Shown piece after piece: positions 53,633 to 57,093 of a stretch of DNA of 64,000 bases (its first letter is position 1; every line of letters begins with the position of its first letter). This DNA comes from Rhodoferax sp. AJA081-3. GTDB lineage: Bacteria > Pseudomonadota > Gammaproteobacteria > Burkholderiales > Burkholderiaceae_C. The notes below the pieces were generated by a model. The model worked only from the letters and a program-made list of their open reading frames with translations, had not been told where the DNA came from and did no database searches. The DNA lies in contig NZ_CP059068.1 of assembly GCF_017798165.1 (NCBI RefSeq), positions 2,604,001 through 2,668,000 on the forward strand, given 5' to 3'. The position numbers and the translations under genes are program-made.

Positions 53633-53673
53633 TTTCACCAACAGCAATTATTTTCAGGCATATCTAGAATATT

Positions 53674-53693
53674 TGTTCTAGAACATCTATACT
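53674..53693 (+). promoter_or_regulatory. BlaI-type operator and -10 element upstream of blaI
   Basis: A perfect 12-base palindrome TGTTCTAGAACA (53674-53685) is followed by TATACT (53688-53693), a good -10 element. Transcription from it would start about 7 bases later, at the ATG at 53700, so the mRNA may be leaderless. TCTAGAA at 53663 and ACTAGA at 53691 give outer half-site similarity. The arrangement fits autorepression by a BlaI dimer. Confidence 0.6.
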
Positions 53694-53699
53694 AGATTC

Positions 53700-54104
53700 A
53701 TGCCACAAGCGACAACCCCCATCCCCCACCCCACCGCCGCCGAGCTGGACCTGCTGCGCATACTCTGGCGCATAGGCGCTGCCGACGCCAAGCTGGTGCA
53801 TGAAGCCCTGCTGGAAGAACGGCCCGACGCGACCTATGCCACCGTGCTGCGCCAGTTGCAAGTCATGTATGGCAAGGGCCTGCTGACCCGTGACGAGAGC
53901 CAGCGCCCGCAGCTTTACGCGCCCGCGCAAAAGCAGGACAAGCTGCAAACCCATTTGCTCAAAGACCTGATCGCCAAGGCCTTTGCCGGTTCGGGCAAGG
54001 CCCTGGTACTAGCCGCACTCAAGGGCCATGTCAGTGCCAAGGAGCGTGCCGACATCCAGAGGCTGCTGGGTGGTGGCAATAGCAAACAGGACGAGGCCCC
54101 ATGA
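53700..54104 (+). CDS. BlaI/MecI/CopY family transcriptional repressor
   Basis: 134 residues. A winged-helix domain covers residues 13-85 (TAAELDLLRILWRIGAADAK, then DATYATVLRQLQVMYGKGLL), characteristic of BlaI/MecI. In the classic pathway BlaI is removed when the membrane protease BlaR1 is activated. Its stop codon overlaps the start of the M56 protease gene (ATGA), the usual blaI-blaR1 pairing. No ribosome-binding site is visible at the ATG, in keeping with a possibly leaderless message. Confidence 0.93.
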   Translation: MPQATTPIPHPTAAELDLLRILWRIGAADAKLVHEALLEERPDATYATVLRQLQVMYGKGLLTRDESQRPQLYAPAQKQDKLQTHLLKDLIAKAFAGSGKALVLAALKGHVSAKERADIQRLLGGGNSKQDEAP

Positions 54105-55927
54105 GCCCGCTGACCACTGTGGAATCAATGTTGGTGCCAGCCCTGGGCTGGGCGCTGCTGCACTTTGTGTGGCAAGGCCTGGTAGTGGGTGCGGTTGCCG
54201 TAGTTGCTCTGGCCCTGCTGCGCCATGCCAGCCCGCGCTGGCGGTATGCCGTGTGTGCGCTGTCTTTGCTCATTTGCCTGGCCCTGCCCTTGGCCCATAT
54301 GGGCTGGATGCTGGGCACCGTGGATGTGCTGGCACCGCCAACATTTGCGCTACCCGGGTGGTTGCAATCTGTGGCCGCACAACTGCCGGCCCTAGTGGCC
54401 GCCTGGAGCCTGGGTGTGGGTCTAATGGCGCTGCGCCTGGGCGCTGGCCTGGCCTGGGTGGGCATGTTGCGCCGCCGCGCGGTCCCGGCCCCCGCGGTCT
54501 GGCAGGCGCGGCTGGATGCGCTGGCGCACACCCTGGGTGTGCAGCGCAAGGTTTTGTTGCAGCTGCTGCCCGATCTGCCCAGCCCCATCACCGTGGGTTT
54601 TCTGCGGCCGTTGGTGCTGATGCCAACTGCCTTGCTCAGCGGTATGCCCGTGCATTTGCTGGAGGCCCTGCTGGCCCACGAACTGGCCCATGTGCGCCGC
54701 TGGGATTACTTGGCCAACCTGCTGCAAAGCGTGGTCGAGGCCCTGCTGTTTTTCCACCCTGTGGTGTGGTGGTTGTCGGGCCGCATGCGGGATGCGCGTG
54801 AAGAGGTGGCCGATGAACTGGCCGCCGCTGCGCTGGATGACGACCCCCACCGCCTGGCCAAGGCCTTGCATGCGCTTGCCCTGCAACAAGCTGCCCCCAT
54901 GCTCAGCCTGGCGCTGGCCGCCAACGGTGGCAAATTACTACAACGATTGGAACGACTGATGGCACCGCACCACACCCATACCTCGGGCTGGAAGATGGCC
55001 CTGCCCGCCCTGCTGCTGGCCTGCACCAGCCTGTGGGTCCAGGCGCGCACAACCCCGGCTACCAGCCCGGTGCAAGCACCTGCCGCAACCATTGCGGCGG
55101 CGGCCCCTGTTGCAACCACCACGCCACCGGCCACACCCGCAGTCACCCCGGTACTGCCTACTGCGCCGCAGTTGCTGCAATTGCCCGTCAACGCCAAACA
55201 CGCCCTGGTGCTGGAAGAAGGCACAGGCCGCATCGTGATGGCCAAGAATGCGGATGCGCCCGTGCCCATTGCCTCCATCACCAAGCTGGTGACGGCCATG
55301 GTGGTGCTGGATGCCAAGCCCAATTTGCAAGAGACCTTGCGCATCAGCCAAGACGATGTGGACATGCTCAAACACAGCGCATCCAGCATCCGCGTGGGTG
55401 CCGAGATGCCGCGCCTGGCCGCGCTCAAGCTGGCGTTGATGCAGTCAGAGAACCGTGCCTCGGCCGCTCTGGCCCGCACCTACCCCGGTGGCACCGCTGC
55501 CTTTGTACAGGCCATGCAGGCCAAGGTGCGCAGCCTGGGCCTGACCCACACCAGCTTTGCCGATGCCACTGGCCTGTCGCCGGCCAACACGTCCACCGCC
55601 ACCGAGGTGGCCAAGATTGTGGCCGCGGCGGCCCGCTACCCGGCCATTGCCAACATCACCAGCGACCGCACAGCCAGTGTGCCGGTCAACGGCCGTGTGC
55701 GCGCGGTGCACAACACCAACAAGCTGGTGGGCGGCAGCGGCTGGGACATCCTGCTCTCCAAGACCGGCTACACCGACGAGGCCGGCCGCTGCCTGACCAT
55801 GCGGATGAAGAGTGGCAACAAACACTTCACCGTGGTGCTGCTGGATGCCGATGGCTCGGCCCAGCGCCTGCGCGATGCGACCCGCATACGCTCTTCGCTG
55901 GTCCAGCTGGCCAAGCAGCACATCTAA
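54101..55927 (+). CDS. BlaR1-like M56 metallopeptidase fused to an S11 D,D-peptidase (PBP) domain
   Basis: 608 residues. The N-terminal half is a BlaR1/MecR1-type M56 protease with four likely membrane helices and the zinc motif HELAHVRRWD near residue 193. After a Thr/Ala/Pro-rich linker (about 310-365) comes a low-molecular-mass penicillin-binding domain of family S11: SITK near residue 391, SEN near 448 and KTGYTDEAG near 553. In BlaR1 the extracellular sensor is a class D beta-lactamase-like domain, so an S11 D,D-peptidase in that place is unusual. It overlaps blaI and precedes a D-amino-acid-oxidase-like gene by 26 bases. Confidence 0.9.
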   Translation: MSPLTTVESMLVPALGWALLHFVWQGLVVGAVAVVALALLRHASPRWRYAVCALSLLICLALPLAHMGWMLGTVDVLAPPTFALPGWLQSVAAQLPALVAAWSLGVGLMALRLGAGLAWVGMLRRRAVPAPAVWQARLDALAHTLGVQRKVLLQLLPDLPSPITVGFLRPLVLMPTALLSGMPVHLLEALLAHELAHVRRWDYLANLLQSVVEALLFFHPVVWWLSGRMRDAREEVADELAAAALDDDPHRLAKALHALALQQAAPMLSLALAANGGKLLQRLERLMAPHHTHTSGWKMALPALLLACTSLWVQARTTPATSPVQAPAATIAAAAPVATTTPPATPAVTPVLPTAPQLLQLPVNAKHALVLEEGTGRIVMAKNADAPVPIASITKLVTAMVVLDAKPNLQETLRISQDDVDMLKHSASSIRVGAEMPRLAALKLALMQSENRASAALARTYPGGTAAFVQAMQAKVRSLGLTHTSFADATGLSPANTSTATEVAKIVAAAARYPAIANITSDRTASVPVNGRVRAVHNTNKLVGGSGWDILLSKTGYTDEAGRCLTMRMKSGNKHFTVVLLDADGSAQRLRDATRIRSSLVQLAKQHI

Positions 55928-55953
55928 ACAAAACCACCCCCAGGAGCATCCCC

Positions 55954-57093
55954 ATGCAACGCCGCCAATTGTTGGGGGCGGGCGCCGCTGCGCTCGTCAC
56001 CTTGCCCTCCATCCACCACGCCCAGCAAAACAGCTTTGCGGCGCCCCGCACGCTGGCCCCCGTGCGCGCCAGCGCAGACCGCCTGATCGACATGACCGTG
56101 TGCCTGCGGCCGTTTCGGGCACAGGGGCCGCGCATCGAGTCCGAACGGCGGTATGGCAAAACCATCGTCCACCACTATGGCCACGGGGGCAGCGGCTGGT
56201 CGCTCTCCTGGGGGTCGGCACAACTGGCCTTGCCACTGATCCAGGCCACCGGTGCGCGCCAGATTGCCGTCATTGGCTGCGGTGCCATTGGCCTGACCAC
56301 GGCCCGGGTGGCGCAGCAACACGGCCTGCGGGTGCGCATCTACTGCAAGGAGCGCCCGCCCGAGGTGGCGTCCACCTTTGCCACCGGCACCTGGTCGCCC
56401 GACTCACGCATTTGCACCGAAGAGCACGCCACACCGGCCTTCAGCCAGCGCTGGGAGACCATGGCCCGCCATTCCTTCCGCACCTACCAAAGCCTGCTGG
56501 GCCTGGCCGACAACCCGGTGGAATGGCGCGACGGATATGTCTTGTCGGACACACCCTTTGACCAGCCGCTGGAAGGCGACGACGACGGCGAGCCGGACTA
56601 CCCGGATTTGCAGGAACGCCTGGCCGACATGCGTCCCCGGTCCGTGCCGCTGAGGCCGGGTGAACACCCGTTTAAAGTGCCCCACGTGCGCCGCTTCACC
56701 CAGATGAACTTCAACATCGCGGCCTACCAGCGGCTGCTGGTGAATGACTTTTTGCGCGCGGGCGGCGAGTTTGTGCAGCGCACGTTTGAGCACCCCCGCC
56801 AGTTTTCCGACCTGCGCGAGCGCACTATCGTTAACTGCACCGGTTACGGCGCGCGGGCGCTGCTCGGCGACCACAGCATCATCCCGGTGCGGGGGCAAAT
56901 CGCCCGCCTGGTACCACAGGCCGAGGTGGACTACGCCATCATGTACCGGGGCCACAACCTTTTCATGCTGTCGCGGCGTGACAGCCTGCTGGTGCAGGCA
57001 CAGGGTGTGCACGACTTTGGCAACGACGACACCCGCGTGGACCGCGCGCTGTCGGTGGCTGCGGTGGAGCGACTGGCGGCGCTGTTCGCTTAG
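55954..57093 (+). CDS. Tat-exported D-amino-acid-oxidase-like flavoprotein, apparently circularly permuted
   Basis: 379 residues. The N-terminus MQRRQLLGAGAAAL is a Tat-like twin-arginine signal, implying export as a folded flavoprotein. From residue 50 the sequence reads LRPFRAQGPRIESERRYGKT, then VHHYGHGGSGWSLSWGSA, the block that ends ordinary D-amino-acid oxidases. Only after it comes the FAD Rossmann motif IAVIGCGAIGL (about residue 103), which ordinarily starts the protein. The C-terminus (DSLLVQAQGVHDFGNDDTR) matches the part that normally precedes the RPxRPQ block. So the two ends have been exchanged. Substrate is presumed to be a D-amino acid, plausibly D-alanine freed by the neighbouring D,D-peptidase. 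Confidence 0.85.
   Translation: MQRRQLLGAGAAALVTLPSIHHAQQNSFAAPRTLAPVRASADRLIDMTVCLRPFRAQGPRIESERRYGKTIVHHYGHGGSGWSLSWGSAQLALPLIQATGARQIAVIGCGAIGLTTARVAQQHGLRVRIYCKERPPEVASTFATGTWSPDSRICTEEHATPAFSQRWETMARHSFRTYQSLLGLADNPVEWRDGYVLSDTPFDQPLEGDDDGEPDYPDLQERLADMRPRSVPLRPGEHPFKVPHVRRFTQMNFNIAAYQRLLVNDFLRAGGEFVQRTFEHPRQFSDLRERTIVNCTGYGARALLGDHSIIPVRGQIARLVPQAEVDYAIMYRGHNLFMLSRRDSLLVQAQGVHDFGNDDTRVDRALSVAAVERLAALFA

Follow-up and report, generated by a model that had tools for sequence, protein, structure and literature searches.

Natural circular permutation of the D-amino-acid oxidase fold in a Rhodoferax protein with a predicted Tat signal, encoded behind a BlaI/BlaR1-like gene pair

We analysed a 64,000-nt stretch of the Rhodoferax sp. 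AJA081-3 genome (contig NZ_CP059068.1, positions 2,604,001 to 2,668,000; hereafter the window), in which an open reading frame (ORF) at 55954..57093 on the plus strand encodes a 379-residue protein (P0001) related to D-amino-acid oxidases (DAOs), which are textbook flavoenzymes. The gene was assigned from phmmer matches in the PDB and from Pfam PF01266; it begins with ATG, has a Shine-Dalgarno-like AGGAG 7 nt upstream of it (55942..55946, plus strand), and is the sole match in its own 5.17 Mb single-contig genome. Read on the plus strand from its start, it encodes a predicted twin-arginine translocation (Tat)-like signal, MQRRQLLGAGAAALVTLPSIHHA, at residues 1-23 (55954..56022), a block at residues 44-98 (56083..56247) that corresponds to the C-terminus of standard DAOs (roughly residues 274-328 in human DAO), a short linker that unites both ends of a standard DAO (56248..56259), and a body at residues 101-379 (56254..57090) that holds the Rossmann strand, the GCGAIG motif, the flavin adenine dinucleotide (FAD) domain, and the substrate domain and is equivalent to approximately residues 1-268 of DAOs. 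The protein belongs to the DAO branch within the GR2-type FAD oxidoreductases and scores 91.3 bits against the Pfam DAO model PF01266 (curated cut-off 27.9, E 1.1e-25). Because the best stretch of this linear match begins at residue 104 and ends at 378, it leaves the first ~100 residues of the protein unexplained.

A sequence-only reading of the window had proposed that RPFRAQ and HHYGHGGSGWSLSWG stand N-terminal to AVIGCGAIGL as the outcome of a circular permutation. The motifs are indeed located at residues 52-57, 73-87, and 105-114, respectively, with YGHGGSG at 75-81, and the permutation is borne out by sequence, phylogeny, structure prediction, and alignment of the body. When the protein was compared with the PDB using phmmer, residues 44-98 matched the C-terminus (320-374) of the DAO 7ct4 and residues 101-317 matched its N-terminal part (23-240), giving two significant matches whose order is exchanged (E 1.2e-17 for the whole sequence; independent E-value of the block 6.8e-8). 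An identical swap was obtained against the D-aspartate oxidase 6rkf and the D-amino-acid oxidase 8hy5. A profile made from five family members rearranged into standard order (A2) matched 17 DAO or D-aspartate oxidase sequences in the PDB, plus one styrene monooxygenase weakly; the best match, 7ct4 (E 8.4e-43), formed a single alignment across profile positions 2-342 of 345, and 6rkf was also aligned in one piece (E 1.5e-37). We also scored every rotation of the window protein with a profile of 11 standard-order DAOs (A4), which is independent of any re-ordering. The native order reached 76.8 bits (model positions 3-252), while the best rotation, which begins at residue 101, reached 130.2 bits (3-317 of 322). 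Homologs gained from rotation too, from 111.6 to 168.0 bits for the Hyphomonas-type P0242 and from 101.9 to 148.9 bits for the protein of locus L012, and two standard DAOs scored best at their native start or no more than three residues away from it.

The cut points are consistent with this, as the C-terminus stops approximately where the block of a DAO would start, in agreement with what had been read from the sequence. The AlphaFold2 model (pLDDT, the predicted local distance difference test, of 93) matches solved DAOs in its body. Rows of the structural alignment span residues 94-379 at most, and the spatial placement of the block therefore rests on AlphaFold confidence together with sequence. 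In the model the block forms strands at 44-55, 60-66, and 69-75 and a helix at 78-97, and this former C-terminal helix is separated from the first Rossmann strand (103-107) by residues 98-102 only. The spacing is similar across the family: in 54 of 63 permuted rows, 13 residues separate the WG of the block from the point where the body profile begins (range 11-17). The block, with which a standard DAO ends, is now ahead of the Rossmann strand, attached through a very short linker, and the new termini fall where the standard protein passes from the substrate domain to the block.

Homolog sets show how general this order is. The window-type set (n=121) consists of the window protein and the best 120 of 6914 matches (8000 scored), these 120 being 64-91% identical to it; a second permuted set (n=120) is of Hyphomonas type, and a standard-order set (n=120) consists of homologs of a Streptomyces protein (L165). 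By profile, the block precedes the body in 121 of 121 window-type and 118 of 120 Hyphomonas-type proteins (P0293 and P0318 are fragments and undecided), which makes 239 of 241 in the two homolog sets, and it follows the body in 119 of 120 standard-order proteins (P0149 undecided); the classifying profile, A2, is itself derived from re-ordered permuted proteins. An earlier regular-expression classification was less complete, with 113/121, 92/120, and 115/120 plain cases and the remainder being missed or false motif matches. From at least 574 stretches confirmed in a genome scan we took 80 named loci, from Burkholderiales, Xanthomonas, Dyella, Luteimonas, sphingomonads, Bradyrhizobium, and others, as well as Acidobacteria and one Opitutaceae metagenome-assembled genome. 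All 80 carry one block match, and it lies ahead of the Rossmann motif in all 65 in which both motifs were matched. We also looked for a second C-terminal block or a duplication intermediate, a search limited to the 241 permuted-set proteins and the fetched loci, and none was present among those proteins, the window protein included; the match at residue 358 of P0102 is FGNANAS and not the block. A frameshift, an assembly error, or a look-alike N-terminal block has nothing that we found in its favor and is refuted by the conserved order, by the single-contig genome, and by the independent match of the block to DAO C-termini, so that an artefact of this kind is a negligible prospect. We are close to certain that the window ORF is a natural circular permutant of the DAO fold.

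The permuted form is patchy in its distribution. It was found in 15 of 299 Pseudomonadota genomes (one, G210, with an in-frame stop), 13 of 250 genomes of the window's own family (G364 and G381 partial), and 10 of 119 genomes of Edaphobacter's phylum. In the 299 Pseudomonadota, profile A2 recovered the 15 permuted-form genomes, all with separate block and body matches in permuted order, and A4 recovered 12 of them; with seven candidates scored per genome and at the thresholds used, neither profile found a standard-order DAO there. Plasmids of Burkholderia glumae and Vibrio, in contrast, do carry standard-order relatives. There are also some individual cases to record. A metagenome bin titled Klebsiella pneumoniae (L039) has a window-type permuted DAO, although the organism name looks doubtful, and one genome of Edaphobacter's phylum (G592) has four permuted DAO-like matches. 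The match with one in-frame stop codon in G210 is locus L006, and on a Mesorhizobium plasmid (L170, 1235-2298) the permuted DAO is annotated as two overlapping ORFs split within the Rossmann motif, which is either a broken gene or a sequencing error.

In unrooted trees of re-ordered rows, which include the long rows 7ct4 and 6rkf, all permuted proteins fall on one side of a single branch. Its support is 89 in a quick tree of 82 rows, 100/99 in a careful tree of 67 rows (15 dropped, including a long Halostagnicola row), and 100/98 in a body-only tree of 63 rows, for which four further standard rows were lost because they had no cut site by the rule used. Convergent permutation was considered and is not needed, as one branch separates both orders, though the root was not inferred; since the DAOs of fungi and mammals follow the standard order, the simple reading is that the permuted order is derived. 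The family is large and the order requires one change on the tree, and it is not an isolated oddity. We distinguish group A, which contains the window protein, group B, with the Hyphomonas-like rows and L009, L012, and L013 (not one clade in the careful tree), and group C, with L014, L015, L168 (a Bradyrhizobium elkanii plasmid), and L169 (Nonomuraea).

The active site differs between these groups. According to PMC6697736, Tyr244 and Arg308 of the Rasamsonia emersonii DAO bind the substrate carboxylate, and Met213 is given in the numbering of Rhodotorula gracilis DAO. By hand count on the re-ordered-profile alignment, Tyr244 and Arg308 correspond to positions 264 and 328 in the 7ct4 chain. The counterpart of Arg308 in the window protein is Arg52 (56107..56109, plus strand), and this Arg is present in 63 of 63 permuted rows. 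We take Arg52 to be equivalent to Arg285 of R. gracilis DAO, whose other sites we assume to be Tyr223, Tyr238, Ser335, and Gln339 in the usual numbering. The carboxylate-binding Tyr is kept in 18 of 18 group B and 4 of 4 group C rows and in only 2 of 41 group A rows, which have Ser (17), Phe (7), Asn (6), and others at this position; the window protein has Phe337 (56962..56964, plus strand). The GG(T) motif of standard DAOs is likewise absent from all group A rows, its first Gly being replaced by Gln in 41 of 41 (Gln348 in the window protein, 56995..56997, plus strand, where the motif reads QA). There are group B proteins, one from Hyphomonas for example, in which both the Tyr and GG are present. 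As groups B and C kept the Tyr, the permutation by itself did not disturb these sites, and the window's clade changed separately. Of the two motifs named for bacterial DAOs in PMC9844085, GxRPxR and YGHGGxG, the second is present in the window protein as YGHGGSG, while the first reads CLRPFR (50-55), retaining RPxR with a Cys50 for Gly that is invariant in our alignment A1. That paper also reports that in broader collections of sequences conservation is confined to the FAD fingerprint and the Arg.

These changes leave room for an alternative in which an exported permuted DAO-fold protein was re-purposed for another reaction, such as the oxidation or dehydrogenation of N-substituted glycines, of the C-terminal residues of peptides, or of a different carboxylate amine, and in which any tie to the cell wall is loose or local. 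The stem of the window-type clade is long, at 1.52 changes per column in the quick tree, and the loss of the Tyr in most of its rows and of GG in all, with the Arg retained, is what such a change would leave behind; the presence of wall-type neighbors at no more than 15 of 80 named loci would fit a loose tie. Set against this, none of the compared rows departs from the Arg, the RPxR, or the greater part of the YGHGGxG block, and penicillin-recognising-type serine hydrolases adjoin the gene repeatedly, in several lineages; we consider re-purposing rather unlikely. Even so, the altered pocket of the window's clade suggests that the substrate may differ from free D-alanine.

The N-terminus carries the second distinctive feature. 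The sequence-only reading had placed a Tat-like signal ahead of the moved block, and the predicted start, MQRRQLLGAGAAALV, does have a twin-arginine n-region, with R3 and R4 invariant in an alignment of 72 permuted rows (A5), and a hydrophobic stretch; the genome has a TatC match of 211.4 bits. By a home-made rule, Tat-like starts occur in 114 of 121 window-type and 113 of 120 Hyphomonas-type proteins and at 75 of 80 named loci, compared with 3 of 120 standard-order proteins. Among the five named loci that fail the rule, L037 runs into a contig end, and for L023 and L032 the start assigned was wrongly long. A Tat signal combined with a lipobox is seen at 30 of 80 named loci and in 65 of 120 Hyphomonas-type and 5 of 121 window-type proteins. 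The standard DAOs that we saw start at or near the Rossmann strand. Inspection of the permuted sequences at L014, L168, and L169 revealed no visible signal, so the permutation is not only an export device, and export appears to be usual rather than universal among permutants. For the window protein itself we judge it probable that it is an exported flavoenzyme. As a separate observation, permuted DAOs of Bradyrhizobium (L168, 1258-2310), Nonomuraea (L169, 1195-2349), and Mesorhizobium (L170) in which no signal is visible adjoin a thiamine-pyrophosphate-dependent enzyme, which is annotated in L168 and L170 and was identified by eye in L169, and this may be a conserved gene set.

The genes upstream offer a context for such an enzyme. 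A BlaI/MecI-like repressor gene (Penicillinase_R, PF03965, profile match with E 1.7e-18) lies at 53700..54104 on the plus strand, and it is followed on the same strand at 54101..55927 by a gene recognised from profiles and motifs as a BlaR1-type M56 peptidase fused to a Peptidase_S11 D-Ala-D-Ala carboxypeptidase domain. The motifs of the fusion are in place (HELAH 193, SITK 392, SEN 449, and KTG 554, which include the SxxK, SxN, and KTG elements); the usual BlaR1 sensor domain is of another type than S11. Just 5' of the repressor start is an operator-like palindrome, TCTAGAATATTTGTTCTAGA (53663..53684), whose part GTTCTAGAAC at 53675-53684 recurs ahead of the repressor gene in seven of the eight related loci that we compared (not in L022, where the start is unsure). 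A second, similar site is present further upstream in L023, L028, L032, L035, and L079. The repressor and the M56-S11 gene stand together upstream of the permuted DAO gene in 8 of 80 named loci, and at a ninth (L017) the S11 part is upstream and the set is cut by the contig. The full set is also present in 5 of 10 loci from the window's own family (L142 and L146-L149; L147 and L023 are probably the same genome). Intergenic gaps are as small as -4.

In other lineages a PF00144-type gene is located directly 3' of the permuted DAO gene, in Paucibacter, Luteimonas (with a 4-nt overlap), and Dyella, for 8 of 80 named loci; the neighbors at L041, L044, L050, and L070 were assigned by similarity to scanned ones or by tally. 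Chance adjacency in three lineages seems unlikely. Beyond the wall link the neighbors are mixed. In a set of 44 of 69 same-strand adjacent genes (A3), from which BlaR1-type, short, and some other genes were left out, PF00144 occurred in six, MgtE, MgtE_N, and CBS in three each, and the rest of the first 25 families in at most two. At L161 (4654-8041) the permuted DAO gene lies between genes that we take, by eye, to be hslU-like and hslV-like, and what we presume to be an hslU-like gene is directly 3' at L157 and L160.

Putting these lines together, the explanation that we favor, and think likely overall, is an exported permuted DAO-fold flavoenzyme that oxidises a D-amino-acid-type product of wall trimming. 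This role is proposed because S11 enzymes release D-alanine, which is the classic substrate of DAOs. The protein would fold around FAD in the cytoplasm, be exported in folded form by Tat, and work in the periplasm, where Arg52 would bind the carboxylate of a D-amino-acid-type substrate, the flavin would accept the hydride, and electrons would pass to oxygen or to a membrane acceptor. The gene order suggests that in the window lineage the enzyme would be co-expressed with a D-Ala-D-Ala carboxypeptidase under a BlaI/BlaR1-like switch and would consume D-alanine or a different D-amino acid set free by wall trimming. That the substrate is a D-amino acid from wall turnover is a tentative proposal, somewhat short of even chances.

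Several points weigh against this explanation. The activity, cofactor, and location of the window protein are predictions from its sequence, and DAO activity may have been lost or changed given the residues at the Tyr and GG positions. Wall-type neighbors occur at only 15 of 80 named loci, and those that we sought were not found at the other 65 (some cut by contig ends), at any of the 14 phylum-survey loci, or at 5 of 10 family-survey loci; the queries were six proteins or domains from the window, L018, L040, and L043, which other wall enzymes could escape. The six genomes in which PF00144 matches were counted have 7-23 each, so that one adjacency by itself could be due to chance, and in Dyella L052 the hydrolase relative is 613 bp away on the opposite strand. 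The first tree, with its long Halostagnicola row, supports the dividing branch at 89 only, and in the rotation test the cytosolic-type L014 did not gain and L066 gained only partially. A non-catalytic role was also considered, in which an exported DAO relic binds D-alanine or a piece of the wall and signals this to the BlaR1-like sensor whose gene lies upstream. An operon that pairs a repressor with a sensor-like M56/S11 protein would suit such a role, as would a pocket with residues partly lost, yet the GxGxxG glycines and the Arg are invariant in the 72 permuted rows and we know of no precedent, which makes sensing very improbable.

The wider scenario that we can offer around the exported flavoenzyme is speculative, and we would sooner bet against it than for it. 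A single ancestral permutation may have moved the N-terminus of a DAO to the surface, off the buried first Rossmann strand, and so have made room for Tat signals and lipoprotein anchors. This form could then have come to prevail among the DAOs of Pseudomonadota and to spread in Acidobacteriota, with the window lineage recruited under a BlaI/BlaR1-like switch, together with a DD-carboxypeptidase, as a periplasmic destroyer of D-alanine or a D-alanine-like product of wall trimming.

The permuted branch of the DAO family seems to be undescribed, as the sequence-only reading had supposed for a DAO both permuted and exported. A full-text literature search, which most subscription papers were beyond the reach of, returned no description of a natural DAO circular permutant and no account of a Tat-exported or periplasmic one. 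The papers checked for having both DAO and permutation wording were unrelated, and the string 'permut' is absent from the main text of PMC9844085, PMC4699246, and PMC6697736. PMC9844085, from 2022, puts the known bacterial DAO genes at slightly more than 10, all in a group written 'Acinetobacteria', which contrasts with a mostly Tat-signalled branch in 15 of 299 Pseudomonadota and 10 of 119 Edaphobacter-phylum genomes. What goes beyond the sequence-only reading is that the family is large, that two other permuted groups keep the active-site Tyr, and that the window's clade has mostly lost it. If active, the enzyme would place D-amino-acid oxidation in the periplasm beside wall trimming and would be a natural flavoenzyme permutation with a testable reason, an N-terminus freed for export. 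It would also be a warning for annotators, as a linear profile misses the first 100 residues.

Compared with known DAOs (EC 1.4.3.3; R. emersonii 7ct4, pig 1kif, and R. gracilis 1c0i), which have an N-terminal Rossmann motif and a C-terminal block, the window protein has the reverse order with the C-terminal block at its N-terminus, an added Tat signal, Phe in place of Tyr, and QA in place of GG. D-aspartate oxidases (6rkf and 9vpf) have the standard order. Among the other GR2 FAD enzymes, glycine oxidase ThiO is not a match, as the window protein scores 35.1 bits against the equivalog model TIGR02352, far under its cut-off of 250.8. Bacterial standard-order relatives from Tsukamurella (L164), Streptomyces (L165), Burkholderia glumae (L166), and Vibrio coralliilyticus (L171), which a re-ordered query or L164 itself retrieved, contain the same blocks, but unlike the window protein they have the Rossmann motif first and the block last. 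L164, L166, L171, and the L165 homologs sit across one branch from the permuted rows, and the three Tat-like starts of the standard-order set are those of L165 homologs. With the BlaI/BlaR1 modules of the beta-lactam response the window shares the Penicillinase_R repressor, the M56 protease, and a palindromic operator-like site, but here the M56 protein has an S11 DD-carboxypeptidase domain as its fusion partner, in which the SxxK, SxN, and KTG motifs are present, and the gene behind it encodes a DAO-fold enzyme and not a beta-lactamase.
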